The position numbers were made by a program, and so were the translations under genes. A DNA stretch of 37,643 nucleotides from a virus: positions 1 through 37,643 of the IMG/VR virus record IMGVR_UViG_3300020450_000003; one strand, written 5' to 3'. The notes under the pieces are model-generated. The model was given only the letters and a program-made list of their open reading frames with translations. It did not search any database and was not told where the DNA came from. The number at the start of each line of letters is the position of its first letter. The stretch's first letter is position 1. Of this stretch, positions 26,653 to 31,501 are shown piece after piece.

Positions 26653-27170
26653 ATTATGAAACGCGAAAAAGAATGGTTTCAAATTGGTTGTTTGATTTTC
26701 TAAAGAATTATGAAGTGCCGCCGCATTTAGATCAAGATGCAAGCAAAAAAGAATTGGTAAATATGGTTGAAGACATAAACAGCGAAATACCGTTGTTGAA
26801 AGAAAACAGTTTTAAATTGTTATTAGAGAATGTTGCCAAACATATCAGAAAAAATCAAACATCAAGACGATGGCCAACAATCGCATTTTTTATCAAAGCC
26901 GTAAAAGAACATAGGGAAAAAGCGATGAATGACATGGCAAAAGAAACATTGCCAAGCCCATCACAAAACGAAAAAATTGACCGCACGTTAATAATCAACG
27001 CAAAAAGAATAAAAGACGGTATTCCCGTTGACGAATATTATATTGTTGGAAACGGCAAAAAAAAATTATTGGAAGAAAAATTAATAACAGAACAGGATTT
27101 AAAAAAATACGATGGATTTAAAAGATTATTCTTTGATGAAAGTCAAAGATTTAAGGCCGTACAAAAATAA
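26649..27170 (+). CDS. Possible lambda P-like replication partner
   Basis: This 173-aa protein starts in an ATGA overlap with the initiator. It is helical and charged (MVEDINSEIPLLKENSFKLLLENVAKHIRKNQTSRRWPTIAFFIKAVKEH). The RRWPTIAFFIKA segment is a pattern found in P-like or loader-type phage proteins. The C-terminal half (KRIKDGIPVDEYYIVGNGKKKLLEEKLITEQDLKKY) has no motif I know. No Walker motif is present, so it is not a DnaC-type ATPase. The helicase-loading role is inferred from its position after an O-like gene. Confidence 0.5.
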   Translation: MNYETRKRMVSNWLFDFLKNYEVPPHLDQDASKKELVNMVEDINSEIPLLKENSFKLLLENVAKHIRKNQTSRRWPTIAFFIKAVKEHREKAMNDMAKETLPSPSQNEKIDRTLIINAKRIKDGIPVDEYYIVGNGKKKLLEEKLITEQDLKKYDGFKRLFFDESQRFKAVQK

Positions 27171-27654
27171 TAGCCGCATACACAAAGAACCACAAATTCA
27201 ACAAATAGCAGATTCCATTGAACAATGGGGTTTTACAATGCCAATTTTGATTGATGATGAAAAAACAATTTTGGCAGGACATGGTCGTTTGATGGCGGCA
27301 CAAAGATTAAAAATGCCAGAAGTACCTGTTTTAATTGCAAAAAATTGGAGTGAAGAACAAAAAAAAGCATATGTAATTGCTGATAATAAATTGACGGAAA
27401 ATTCGTTTTTCGACCCAGATATGTTGAAAGTCGAAATAAACAATTTGACAGACAAAAATTTTGACATTGATCTATTGGGTTTTTCTGATCAAGAATTGGC
27501 TAAATTATTCGATGAATTAAATTTGGATGATATAAAAGAAATAGACGAAAATTTTGCACAACATGAATTGTTATTAACGTTTGATACTGAAGAACAATTG
27601 GCTGAATATTATGAAAAAGCTGAACAGGAAGGAATACAATGCAAAATTTTGTAG
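27112..27654 (+). CDS. ParB/sulfiredoxin-fold domain protein
   Basis: This 180-aa protein has the ParB N-terminal domain: LMKVKDLRPYKNNSRIHKEPQIQQIADSIEQWGFTMPILIDDEKTILAGHGRLMAAQRLKMPEVPVLI, with the GHGR box at about residue 63-66. YVIADNKLTENSFFDPDML is the typical second block of phage ParB domains that are often fused to DNA methyltransferases. Here no methyltransferase follows in the same protein. It overlaps the upstream gene by 59 nt and the ABC/GNAT gene by 16 nt. Such domains bind or cut nucleotides or DNA; joint action with the next gene is inferred. Confidence 0.75.
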   Translation: MDLKDYSLMKVKDLRPYKNNSRIHKEPQIQQIADSIEQWGFTMPILIDDEKTILAGHGRLMAAQRLKMPEVPVLIAKNWSEEQKKAYVIADNKLTENSFFDPDMLKVEINNLTDKNFDIDLLGFSDQELAKLFDELNLDDIKEIDENFAQHELLLTFDTEEQLAEYYEKAEQEGIQCKIL

Positions 27655-28745
27655 TCAATTTAAAATCAGACCCGCCAAAAGGTTTTCGTAGCATCAAAGC
27701 ATCGCAAAGCGTTGATTTGCCGATTGATCAAAAATTGGTGCATAATTTATCTGTAAAAGCTGATATACATACAGATTTTAATGTTGGTTTAATAATTGGT
27801 GCTTCGGGTTCTGGCAAAACAACGTTAGCAAAAGAAATGTTTGGACCCGCTTGTTTTGATGAATTGTTAGATTTAAAAAAACCAGTGATTGAACAATTCA
27901 GAAAATCAATGTCATACGAGGATTGTGTAGCGGCACTCACAGGAATTGGGTTGTCACAAGTTCCATGTTGGGTAAAACCCGCGGGTGCATTGTCAAACGG
28001 TCAAAAAGCAAGAGCCGAAGCGGCGTTGCAAATGTGTTCGTTACGACCATTCGTTGTGATTGATGAATTTACATCGGTTGTTGATCGCAACGTTGCAAAA
28101 GTAATGGCGCATTGTGTTCAAAGATTTGCGCGAAAATTTGAAAAAAAGATTGTTCTTGTATCTTGTCATTATGATGTTTTCGAATGGTTAAATCCAGATT
28201 GGGTTATTGATTGCAACGATGAAAGTTATCTTGATCGGAGGTTGGAAAGGCGCGAATACAAAAGACAAGAACAAATGCAATTCGAAATTGCCAAATGTCA
28301 CCGAAATACATGGCGAAATTTTAGCAAATATCACTATCTAAGCGATAGATTGGCGGGTGGCCACATTGAATGTTTTGGAATCTATTTAGATAATAAACAA
28401 GTTGGGTTTCAATGTTTTGCAAATTATGTACCGCATAGAAAAGGCACAAAAAAGATAATGCATAGCAATCGAACCGTTGTTCATCCAGATTATGTTGGGT
28501 TTGGGTTGGGAATGAAGGTGATTGATCTAACTTCACAATATATGCATGAACAAGGATTTCTTGTCCAAGCAAAATTTTCTGCATTGCCTGTCTATTACGC
28601 AATGAAGAAACATAAAAATTGGAGATTAACAGCCGTGTCGAATAATACGCAAGAAAGCCAATTTATTCCAGGCGGCAATAGCAAACGCAAATCAGGTTTC
28701 CGCCAAAAGACGAAAACCTTTTCATTTAAATTTATACCGTCTTAA
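27639..28745 (+). CDS. ABC-type ATPase fused to GNAT acyltransferase (COG2401-like)
   Basis: This is a 368-aa fusion. The N-terminal ATPase has Walker A GASGSGKTT (54-62), a variant signature LSNGQ (118-122), Walker B FVVIDEFTS (138-146, E143 catalytic) and an H-loop His (H177). The helical insert between Walker A and the signature is short, as in non-transport ABC proteins. The C-terminal GNAT domain has HPDYVGFGLGMKVI (282-295) for acyl-CoA binding. No membrane segment is present. The fusion matches COG2401. Together with the ParB gene, it is a candidate DNA-modification enzyme of the Mom-like kind, by inference. GGAAGGAATACA precedes the ATG. Confidence 0.8.
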   Translation: MQNFVVNLKSDPPKGFRSIKASQSVDLPIDQKLVHNLSVKADIHTDFNVGLIIGASGSGKTTLAKEMFGPACFDELLDLKKPVIEQFRKSMSYEDCVAALTGIGLSQVPCWVKPAGALSNGQKARAEAALQMCSLRPFVVIDEFTSVVDRNVAKVMAHCVQRFARKFEKKIVLVSCHYDVFEWLNPDWVIDCNDESYLDRRLERREYKRQEQMQFEIAKCHRNTWRNFSKYHYLSDRLAGGHIECFGIYLDNKQVGFQCFANYVPHRKGTKKIMHSNRTVVHPDYVGFGLGMKVIDLTSQYMHEQGFLVQAKFSALPVYYAMKKHKNWRLTAVSNNTQESQFIPGGNSKRKSGFRQKTKTFSFKFIPS

Positions 28746-28972
28746 AGATTGCAAAGATGCGCGGTCATATCGTCATTGGATACCGCATAGACCATTGTTT
28801 TTCCGTCAATCGCACCGTTTGCGTGATTAAGAATAAAATGTAAAACGTCATTTTCCTCTGCACAAATTTGTTTGATACGATTGCGGCCATAGCCACGAAC
28901 ACAAGTAAAATGTTTGCGATTGTCATACACGCTTTTTTCATATTCTGATAAATTGTCATATATCTTTTTCAT
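28742..28972 (-). CDS. Hypothetical small early protein
   Basis: This 76-aa protein starts at ATG 28972 behind ATGGAGGTTCAC; the in-frame extension to 29005 lies upstream of that site. It contains YDNLSEYEKSVYDNRKHFTCVRGYGRNRIKQICAEENDVLHFILNHAN, soluble with two Cys and a basic patch. Its own promoter with the 21-bp box lies 50 bp upstream. Its stop overlaps the end of the convergent ABC/GNAT gene by 3 nt. The function is unknown. Confidence 0.6.
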   Translation of the reverse strand: MKKIYDNLSEYEKSVYDNRKHFTCVRGYGRNRIKQICAEENDVLHFILNHANGAIDGKTMVYAVSNDDMTAHLCNL

Positions 28973-28995
28973 GTGAACCTCCATTACATAAAAAA

Positions 28996-29039
28996 ACGTT
29001 AACACAATTTTTACATCATGTCAACGTTTTGTTTACAAA
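28996..29039 (-). promoter_or_regulatory. Early promoter with shared 21-bp box (gene 28972)
   Basis: On the minus strand the box TTTGTAAAC-N5-GTTGACA occupies 29019-29039, with TTGACA at 29019-29024. At 17-bp spacing the -10 is TAACGT (28996-29001), weak and similar to TAATGT at the recombination operon promoter. The shared weak -10 type suggests dependence on a bound activator. Confidence 0.65.
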
Positions 29040-29043
29040 TATA

Positions 29044-29280
29044 TTAATATTCTTTTTGTGATCCGTCTGCTTTCCCGCAAGAATATCCCGCATGATAATC
29101 GTCAATTTGTTCCTCTGTCATTGCGTCTTGTGTTATCGTCAACGATGATACGGTGGAATCAGAATACATATGTGGATCACGTGGGCGGTGATACCAAAAA
29201 TCAGCCATCCCACGATCAAATGCCCCGCCATGTCTTGCGTCATAACATTTGCCATTCCAATATTTTAAACGTTTTCGCAT
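29044..29280 (-). CDS. Hypothetical small early protein
   Basis: This 78-aa protein contains MRKRLKYWNGKCYDARHGGAFDRGMADFWYHRPRDPHMYS, then EEQIDDYHAGYSCGKADGSQKEY. The GGAFDRG-AD-YY(x)R and DDYHAGY blocks look like a conserved small phage protein pattern. CAGGGTG lies before the ATG. It overlaps the preceding gene by 1 nt and shares its promoter. It is soluble, with two Cys and four His. A metal-binding role is possible but unproven. Confidence 0.6.
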   Translation of the reverse strand: MRKRLKYWNGKCYDARHGGAFDRGMADFWYHRPRDPHMYSDSTVSSLTITQDAMTEEQIDDYHAGYSCGKADGSQKEY

Positions 29281-29558
29281 TATGAACACCCTGCAAATAA
29301 AGGTGACATTGATGAAAAGATTTTATTGTAAGATACGATTTCTGTTAAATGATCCTCACAAAAACATTCGATATCATATTCATCATCTAATTCGTTATAT
29401 AATGAACGACAACGTTCCATTGCGGCAAGTAAATCGCCCTCTTGTCCGTTTGCAATATGTGCATCGGTAAGAAAATTAAGAACATTCTCGGCGGCTTCGT
29501 CAAATGACATATTTTGCAATTCGTCATTTACGGTCAAAAATTCTGGTATAATTAACAT
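29280..29558 (-). CDS. Hypothetical acidic early protein
   Basis: This 92-aa protein uses ATG 29558, one base after the previous stop; the in-frame extension to 29606 would lie inside the gene before. It is acidic and helical (SFDEAAENVLNFLTDAHIANGQEGDLLAAMERCRSLYNELDDEYDIECFCEDHLTEIV). It has no recognised domain. It is the second gene of a three-gene minus operon of small proteins. Confidence 0.6.
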   Translation of the reverse strand: MLIIPEFLTVNDELQNMSFDEAAENVLNFLTDAHIANGQEGDLLAAMERCRSLYNELDDEYDIECFCEDHLTEIVSYNKIFSSMSPLFAGCS

Positions 29559-29559
29559 C

Positions 29560-29724
29560 TTAAAATTCCTTGCTTTCGTCCCAACGATCAATAAAATTAA
29601 GAACAAACGATTGTTGTTCTACAGACAAATCTTCCAACAATGCACCTTGGGCATCAATTGTTTTGTCTTCAATGTTAATTTGATTGTTTAGCCAATCATT
29701 CCATTCATCTATTAATTTATTCAT
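29560..29724 (-). CDS. 54-aa acidic early protein
   Basis: This short gene starts at ATG 29724, directly behind AGAGGTTCAAA, and encodes 54 aa (MNKLIDEWNDWLNN...; ends FIDRWDESKEF). It is acidic, Trp-rich and probably helical. It is the first gene after a strong early promoter with the shared 21-bp box. I do not recognise it. Confidence 0.6.
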   Translation of the reverse strand: MNKLIDEWNDWLNNQINIEDKTIDAQGALLEDLSVEQQSFVLNFIDRWDESKEF

Positions 29725-29793: not shown

Positions 29794-29825
29794 TAATTAC
29801 ATTAATTGATCATTCAAAATTTATC

Positions 29826-29856
29826 TTGTAAATTGATGGGATACATTACATATAAT
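29826..29856 (+). promoter_or_regulatory. Candidate late promoter for terminase operon
   Basis: TTGTAA (29826-29831) and TATAAT (29851-29856) are 19 bp apart, long for sigma70, but the -10 is perfect. The start codon at 29863 is only 7 nt after the -10, so the mRNA would be nearly leaderless. TCTTGTAAATT overlapping the -35 resembles the origin iterons. Confidence 0.45.
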
Positions 29857-29862
29857 AAGATT

Positions 29863-30252
29863 ATGGCAGATACAAAAATCAAAACAAAAGAATTGAAAAA
29901 AAGAGGTCCGAAAGGCGTATCTAAGCCATTGGAAGAAAAAGACTTTCAACGATTATTGAACATGATCAGGATACAATGCACACAAAACGAAATTTGTGAT
30001 GTTTTAGATATGTCAGACACAACATTAAATCGCCGTTTACAAGAGCGAGGATATGCAAATTTTGAAGACTTCCTTAAAAAGCATAACAGCGAAGGAAAAA
30101 TGTCATTAAGACGTATGCAATGGCAAGCGGCAGAAAATGGCAATTCAACAATGCTTGTGTTTCTCGGCAAACAATATTTAGGCCAAAAAGATAAGATTGA
30201 AAATAAAGTGGATGCCAACATCGTCGCTTACAAATGGCTAGATGATGATTAA
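29863..30252 (+). CDS. Terminase small subunit-like protein
   Basis: This 129-aa protein uses ATG 29863; in-frame ATGs at 29806 and 29836 fall upstream of the -10 box. It contains KRGPKGVSKPLEEKDFQRLLNMIRIQCTQNEICDVLDMSDTTLNRRLQERG, a helix-turn-helix for recognising the packaging site, then LRRMQWQAAENGNSTMLVFLGKQYLGQKDK, typical of small terminases. It would bind phage DNA and hand it to the large subunit, whose gene overlaps its stop by 11 nt. It opens the late operon. Confidence 0.8.
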   Translation: MADTKIKTKELKKRGPKGVSKPLEEKDFQRLLNMIRIQCTQNEICDVLDMSDTTLNRRLQERGYANFEDFLKKHNSEGKMSLRRMQWQAAENGNSTMLVFLGKQYLGQKDKIENKVDANIVAYKWLDDD

Positions 30253-31501
30253 AACAATACAATACAGACCGCGAAAATTAATAAGACCATATCACAACAG
30301 AAAAGAACGATACGCAATCATTGTTGCTCATAGACGTTTTGGAAAAACGGTGGCCGCAATTAATGATTTGATAAAAGACGCATTAACAATCAATCGTCCA
30401 CAAGTTCGTGTTGCATACATTGCCCCATATTATCGACAAGCCAAAGCCATCGCTTGGGATTATTTGTTAGAATACACAAAAGATATTGAAGGCGTGGAAT
30501 ATAACGTTGCTGAATTACGAGCCGATTTTCCCAACGGCGCAAGATTTAGATTGTTCGGCGCAGATAATCCCGACAGTTTACGCGGTTTATATTTTGATCA
30601 TGTTGTATTAGATGAACCCGCAGATTTTCCACAACGCGCATGGCCTACGGTTATAAGACCGTCACTAGCCGATAGAAAAGGCCGCGCAACATTTATTGGA
30701 ACGCCCAAAGGCAAAAATCAATTTTATGATACATTTATCAGCGCGCAAAAAGATGACAATTGGTATTGTTCAATGTTGCGAGCATCCGAAACGGACATTC
30801 TTGACGCTGAAGAATTGGCTGAAGCAAAGAAAGCAATGGGTGATGATAGATATGAACAAGAATTTGAATGTTCATTCGAAGCAAGTATTGTCGGCGCATA
30901 TTATGCAAAAGAAATGAAAACAGCAAAACAAGATGGCAGAATTACAACCGTTCCATATGACCCATCTATTGGTGTTGTCAGCGCATGGGATTTGGGCATT
31001 GGCGACAGCACAGCGATTTGGATGGCTCAATACGCGGGGCAAGAAATAAGATTGATTGATTATTATGAAAATTCTGGTGTGGGGCTAGATCATTATGCAA
31101 AAGAACTTAGTAAAACGGGGTATCATTTTACTGACCACATCTTGCCCCACGATGTTCAAGTTAAAGAATTGGGAACAGGCAAGTCAAGAATTGAAACATT
31201 ATCTAATCTTGGAATACAAAATGTGACAATTGCGCCACGATTATCTGTTGATGATGGCATCCAAGCGGTGCGGTCAATGTTGAATAAATGTTGGTTCGAT
31301 GAAAATAAATGTGAACGTGGCGTTGAAGCGTTGACACAATATAGGCGAGAATTTGACGAAAAATTAAAACATTGGCGAGGTCGGCCATTGCATGATTGGA
31401 CGTCACACGGAAGCGATGCCATGAGATATTTGGCAATTGGCAAACGTGACACATATGAATGGGATCAGCCAATAAGAAGGAATTTGCAAGGGATCGCATA
31501 A
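30242..31501 (+). CDS. terL: Terminase large subunit
   Basis: This 419-aa protein is the DNA-packaging motor. The ATPase domain has a Walker A-type AHRRFGKT (29-36) and Walker B HVVLDEP with D124 and E125. FIGTPKGKNQFYD (about 154-166) carries the coupling motif III. The RNase H-fold nuclease shows WDLGIGDST with D250, and a final HGSDAMRYL with D392. The length is typical of podovirus-type large terminases. It overlaps the small subunit gene and is followed by two short basic genes. ATG at 30242 or 30245 are both possible. Confidence 0.92.
   Translation: MMIKTIQYRPRKLIRPYHNRKERYAIIVAHRRFGKTVAAINDLIKDALTINRPQVRVAYIAPYYRQAKAIAWDYLLEYTKDIEGVEYNVAELRADFPNGARFRLFGADNPDSLRGLYFDHVVLDEPADFPQRAWPTVIRPSLADRKGRATFIGTPKGKNQFYDTFISAQKDDNWYCSMLRASETDILDAEELAEAKKAMGDDRYEQEFECSFEASIVGAYYAKEMKTAKQDGRITTVPYDPSIGVVSAWDLGIGDSTAIWMAQYAGQEIRLIDYYENSGVGLDHYAKELSKTGYHFTDHILPHDVQVKELGTGKSRIETLSNLGIQNVTIAPRLSVDDGIQAVRSMLNKCWFDENKCERGVEALTQYRREFDEKLKHWRGRPLHDWTSHGSDAMRYLAIGKRDTYEWDQPIRRNLQGIA

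Follow-up and report, generated by a model that had tools for sequence, protein, structure and literature searches.

An ABC-ATPase/GNAT fusion coupled to a ParB-like protein as a candidate phage DNA-base modification module

The window analyzed here is the whole 37,643-bp stretch of an IMG/VR phage record carrying terminase, portal, tail fibre and recombination genes, and it encodes a ParB-like protein whose gene overlaps that of an ABC-type ATPase fused to a GNAT acyltransferase domain. We consider it probable that this pair constitutes a phage self-DNA modification module, in which an acyl group would be placed on the exocyclic amine of a base in an ATP-gated, ParB-assisted and protective reaction. 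A base-modification machine had been proposed from the letters of the window alone (hereafter the sequence-only reading), and this proposal is supported by gene neighborhood, single-ORF fusions, exchange with the modification enzyme Mom and comparison of active sites.

Both genes were confirmed as open reading frames on the plus strand, at the positions first assigned to them. The upstream gene (27112..27654) codes for a 180-aa ParB/Srx-like protein with an AGHGR motif, which matches PHROG_620 (2.2e-50) and the N-terminal part of a Type II MTase in PADLOC (4e-32). Its Pfam ParB_N match (1.3e-5) scores 25.5 bits, just below the curated cut-off of 26.3, and a ParB N-terminal domain is present, with TIGR00180 matching at 1.5e-9; the product is likely a DNA- or nucleotide-handling partner. 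The downstream gene (27639..28745) codes for the 368-aa ABC-ATPase/GNAT fusion, and the two coordinates overlap by 16 nt (27639..27654). A good Shine-Dalgarno-like site, AGGAAGGA (27626..27633, plus strand), falls within the ParB gene near its 3′ terminus, with 5 nt separating it from the ATG at 27639, so the two proteins are probably translated together by putative translational coupling. Residues 26-366 of the fusion match PHROG_11143 (4.6e-76), a function-unknown family in PHROG that is matched over its full length by the ABC and GNAT parts, and the AlphaFold2 model displays two confident domains (pLDDT 92.3, pTM 0.85). PADLOC returned only weak matches to the ABC region (mad3, mad8) and called no defence system on this protein. 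The next genes on the same strand (29806..31501) are a terminase small-subunit-like gene (PHROG_309, 1.6e-4) and a terminase large subunit (Pfam Terminase_6N, 1.5e-11); small minus-strand ORFs occupy the intervening region (28742-29606).

ABC-GNAT relatives are encoded in 81 phage records, at least about 600 IMG/VR stretches and 434 bacterial-genome stretches, a recurrence far beyond chance. Carriers of the module include the Leptospira phages LE3 and LE4 (L. biflexa Patoc), Lactococcus P335, Pseudoalteromonas SL25 and Gordonia Jace. At least 42 of 80 bacterial-genome copies adjoin phage terminase or portal-like genes and hence look like prophage genes. In the viral clusters, most large ORFs 3′ of ABC-GNAT encode a terminase large subunit, and in some genomes the module is remote from terminase, for example next to tail genes (L033, L034) or in T4-like phages (L028, L029). 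ABC and GNAT are separate adjoining genes in several lineages (Streptococcus, Oenococcus and phage pT24). Residue conservation was determined on 197 loci, 175 of them with a full-length fusion, forming 103 clusters at 70% identity. The motifs named by the sequence-only reading were all recovered on the plus strand: Walker A GASGSGKT (residues 54-61, 27798..27821) with G54, S56, G57, G59 and K60 in 103/103 clusters, the ABC signature LSNGQ (118-122, 27990..28004) with S119 and G121 in 103/103 and L118 in 102/103, and Walker B D142 with catalytic E143 (28062..28067) in all 103. An H-loop, H177 (28167..28169), is likewise present in every cluster, and D149 of the ABC part is identical or nearly so across the set. 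Within the GNAT domain (residues 207-368, 28257..28742, plus strand; pLDDT 88.8 when modeled alone, with PDB matches), the acyl-CoA pyrophosphate loop PDYVGFGLG, placed at about 283-291 (28485..28511), retains P283 and G287 in 103/103 clusters and G289 in 97/103. It is preceded by R278 (28470..28472; 103/103) and by an H232-Y233 dyad (28332..28337; His in 101/103, Tyr in 103/103). The catalytic residues of the ABC part and those of the GNAT part are near-invariant, and both halves of the fusion must therefore be under strong constraint.

A search for conserved ParB neighbors had been suggested as a check, and such neighbors were found. Among 96 ABC-GNAT clusters with at least 700 nt of upstream sequence, a ParB-like ORF lies within 6 kb upstream in 81, the gap is below 60 nt in 67, and the coordinates of both genes overlap in 54. 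Two further loci from planctomycete MAGs (L183:7275-9107 and L150:7236-9074) encode ParB, ABC ATPase and GNAT in a single reading frame, 611 codons long in L183 and 613 in L150; both were scored as ParB-less in the 96-cluster count, though ParB is fused within the same ORF. ParB is missing from the vicinity in several members of the family. In large phages of Pseudomonas, E. coli and Rhizobium (L036, L037 and L039), two ParB-like genes precede an ABC-only protein, and a weak match to the ABC-GNAT family follows at least one gene after it, possibly a divergent split form of the fusion.

The locus is also shared with Mom. Gene order in this region is shared by the Arthrobacter phages EastWest (L030) and Sicarius2 (L474), with flanking proteins 35-90% and ParB 60% identical; ParB is kept in both, and the gene following it encodes ABC-GNAT in EastWest and Mom in Sicarius2. 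Likewise, the Porphyromonas prophages 008a (L034) and 012a (L040) are 88% identical in DNA through the last tail gene and 82% identical across the final 93 bp of the opposite flank, and between these shared flanks 008a harbors ABC-GNAT with a formyltransferase gene and 012a harbors Mom. Because Mom modifies adenine in DNA, the two swaps form the strongest argument for DNA modification, and we take them as strong genetic support for a predicted role of ABC-GNAT on DNA bases. Aeromonas phage PX29 (L029, L042) has one gene of each kind, ABC-GNAT and Mom, at distant positions. The ASCH domain, possibly a fold that binds modified bases, is annotated in genes close to ABC-GNAT in Streptococcus MismyG (L038:4982-5350) and close to Mom in Enterococcus phiEf11 (L475:291-896).

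The ParB side of the pair tells a similar story. We collected 77 newly fetched relatives of the 27112-27654 ParB, a non-random sample of its nearest ones, and called methyltransferase-like tails from protein length plus a DPPY-type motif. Such a fused tail is present in 50 of the 77, which agrees with the statement that the window ParB is without the methyltransferase frequently found fused to such proteins; 10 precede Mom and 6 precede ABC-GNAT. Nine had no called partner, three of these being located before a C5-cytosine methylase, one before a TET-associated glycosyltransferase and two cut by a contig end. Hence, at least 70 of 75 informative close relatives are fused to or beside a DNA-base modifier. 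The glycosyltransferase following a ParB of the same clade (L362:1763-2623) was identified as TAGT with an E-value of 8e-34. In the Mom subfamily represented by Microbacterium phage Appa, the same ParB is found upstream in 69/69 loci and is adjacent in 63, mostly overlapping by ~7 nt; for Mu-type Mom, ParB is upstream in 1/79 loci. A tree of 192 ParB domains requires at least 21 partner changes among ABC-GNAT, Mom and fused methyltransferase, compared with a mean of 60 upon shuffling, so partners cluster on the tree yet have been repeatedly exchanged.

We then compared the GNAT active site with those of Mom and of the RNA acetyltransferases TmcA, Kre33 and NAT10. In the AlphaFold2 model, the first GNAT helix ends with H232-Y233, and hhalign places Mom H48-Y49, invariant in 164 Mom sequences, at the matching position. 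Mom (the phage Mu methylcarbamoylase; PDB 8bv8) and ABC-GNAT thus have in common the GNAT superfamily, a His-Tyr dyad in the same place and, in related phages, the same locus or ParB-coupled slot, whereas Mom contains neither an ATPase nor the canonical acyl-CoA loop, both of which are found in ABC-GNAT. Mom D139 and Y149, invariant in the same 164 rows, have no conserved counterpart, as no Asp or Tyr reaches 85% conservation within G291-W328 of ABC-GNAT. Family-level sequence comparison yielded no significant match to Mom (PHROG_1384, E 0.06; hhalign probability 8%), nor did the GNAT HMM match Mom sequences in the reverse search. The missing D139/Y149 and the weak profile scores rule out membership of the Mom family. 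The link to Mom drawn by the sequence-only reading consequently holds for locus exchangeability and for the dyad, but not for family membership, as D139/Y149 lack a conserved counterpart and the structural neighbors are ordinary GNATs.

E. coli TmcA is closer in profile: its HY at 377-378 and its Arg at 460 (in RIAVHP) are both in register with ABC-GNAT, the latter aligning with R278, and hhalign gives a probability of 72% (E 3.4e-5, 144 columns) with a TmcA profile of three sequences. NAT10 carries the same pair of HY and Arg motifs. Acetylation of rRNA and tRNA is lost in the H545A and R637A mutants of yeast Kre33 (PMC6770127), and we read His545 and Arg637 as the putative equivalents of H232 and R278 from aligned motifs rather than from a numbered structure. 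As a control, a loose test for a His-Tyr pair N-terminal to the acyl-CoA loop was positive for 3/23 ordinary GNATs vs. 97/103 ABC-GNATs. The top PDB match of the whole fusion model is TmcA (2zpa), a piecewise alignment with a TM of 0.30. The GNAT domain alone gave 363 PDB matches at E ≤ 0.001; the best 50 of the 363 are all GNATs, mainly protein or small-molecule acetyltransferases, so that the fold resembles general GNATs most, and Mom 8bv8 is absent among these 50. TmcA, Kre33 and NAT10 share with ABC-GNAT an NTPase and a GNAT in one chain with HY and Arg in register; however, they acetylate an RNA nucleobase, their NTPase is helicase-like instead of ABC, and they carry N- and C-terminal RNA-related domains that ABC-GNAT does not. 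Membership of this family was rejected as well, since neither Pfam DUF1726 nor GNAT_acetyltr_2 (PF13718) was found and the NTPase has an ABC signature and H-loop. From these alignments, the GNAT domain is predicted to act in a TmcA/Mom-like manner while belonging to neither family.

The base-acylation idea itself is not new. According to PMC7824862 (2021), Iyer et al. 2013 predicted that a GNAT coupled to an ABC ATPase acylates a nucleobase of DNA; phage pT24 is named there as a carrier. The sequence-only reading arrived at this existing prediction on its own. The window protein matches the pT24 ABC/GNAT gene pair with an E-value of 5e-41, and the class of Iyer et al. (PHROG_11143), as cited there, has the same architecture and is the same family as far as testable, with no essential difference. 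In pT24, ABC and GNAT are encoded separately and a neighboring ParB was not detected, whereas in the window they are fused and overlapped by ParB. Phage ParB-methyltransferase fusions (PHROG_498) contain a ParB part homologous to the window ParB (3e-47), but their modifier is a methyltransferase in the same chain, compared with an ABC-GNAT in the next gene here. Within an incomplete coverage of the literature, we found no papers on ABC-GNAT with ParB, Mom swaps, triple fusions, the HY/Arg signature or a formyltransferase link.

Several other functions of the pair have to be weighed against this. The ParB and an SMC-like ABC ATPase might act near terminase as a DNA segregation or packaging factor with a regulatory GNAT; SMC-type ABC ATPases act on DNA, and terminase genes are located downstream in many relatives. 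Yet few residues of the protein are better conserved than those of the GNAT active site, the module is also found far from terminase (L033, L034, L028, L029), and Mom replaces it, which makes this explanation very unlikely. A comparably low probability is assigned to TmcA-like acetylation of mRNA or tRNA, which might for example protect against host defences that cleave tRNA: the whole-model match to an RNA acetyltransferase, the better profile match to TmcA than to Mom and the common His-Tyr and Arg argue for it, while the RNA-binding domain of TmcA is absent, and the ParB partner and the locus point to DNA, the substrate of the Mom enzyme that takes its place.

Acylation of a protein (host RNA polymerase, ParB or a capsid/packaging protein) by a host-takeover or regulatory module is the most serious of these alternatives, though still unlikely. 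It would agree with the mainly protein or small-molecule N-acetyltransferases among the best 50 of 363 structural neighbors and with known phage GNATs that acetylate host RNA polymerase, as mentioned in PMC7824862, but it leaves unexplained both the same-locus exchange with Mom and the pairing of this ParB clade with methyltransferases, Mom and a base glycosyltransferase. Finally, several phage genomes annotate the protein as 'ABC iron siderophore transporter', and its ABC motifs and NBD-like fold are compatible with a transporter ATPase or an antibiotic or metabolite resistance protein. We found no membrane permease partner beside the ABC-GNAT gene in the annotated loci read, the protein is coupled or fused to GNAT and ParB across phages, and at least 42 of 80 bacterial-genome copies are located beside phage terminase or portal-like genes. 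The absent permease and the phage context led us to reject this reading as barely credible, which bears out the earlier statement that the ATPase is not a transporter.

For the favored DNA-base modification module, the GNAT domain would take an acyl group from acyl-CoA and attach it to a base in DNA at its exocyclic amine, either adenine N6 or cytosine N4. Driven by ATP, the ABC domain may form a dimer that closes on DNA and either makes the base accessible or gates the reaction, with ParB bringing the enzyme to DNA or holding DNA together with the ABC dimer. The resulting base tag would shield replicated phage DNA from host nucleases before packaging, and the site just before terminase in many relatives fits such modification of replicated DNA prior to packaging. 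TmcA is the NTPase-GNAT precedent for this mechanism. The gene pair, its motifs and their conservation, the single-ORF fusions, the exchange with Mom and the partner choice of ParB are observed, and DNA as substrate, the base, the acyl group, the roles of ATP and ParB and protection are the parts of the module that we infer. In five lineages (Pseudomonas, Porphyromonas, Gordonia, Rhizobium and Thiomicrospira), a formyltransferase-domain gene is positioned immediately after ABC-GNAT or overlaps it, with Pfam PF00551 domains at L034:5005-5478 and L033:5023-5640 and homologues after ABC-GNAT in L032, L174 and L185. This arrangement suggests formylation as a second step.

More tentatively, as a possibility that we hold at somewhat below even chances, the module may make an undescribed N-acylated adenine or cytosine in an ATP-gated reaction, formylated further where the formyltransferase follows, and ParB may serve as a general docking or licensing subunit for methyltransferases, Mom, base glycosyltransferases and ABC-GNATs. 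If the favored modification reading is right, genes that are widespread in phages as a pair and go under the names 'ABC transporter', 'DNA modification methylase' or 'hypothetical' would encode an ATP-driven DNA-base acylation system that phages swap with Mom, and a large clade of phage ParB proteins would gain a role as partners of base-modifying enzymes. The matched phage pairs put the question of base modification within direct reach of mass spectrometry.
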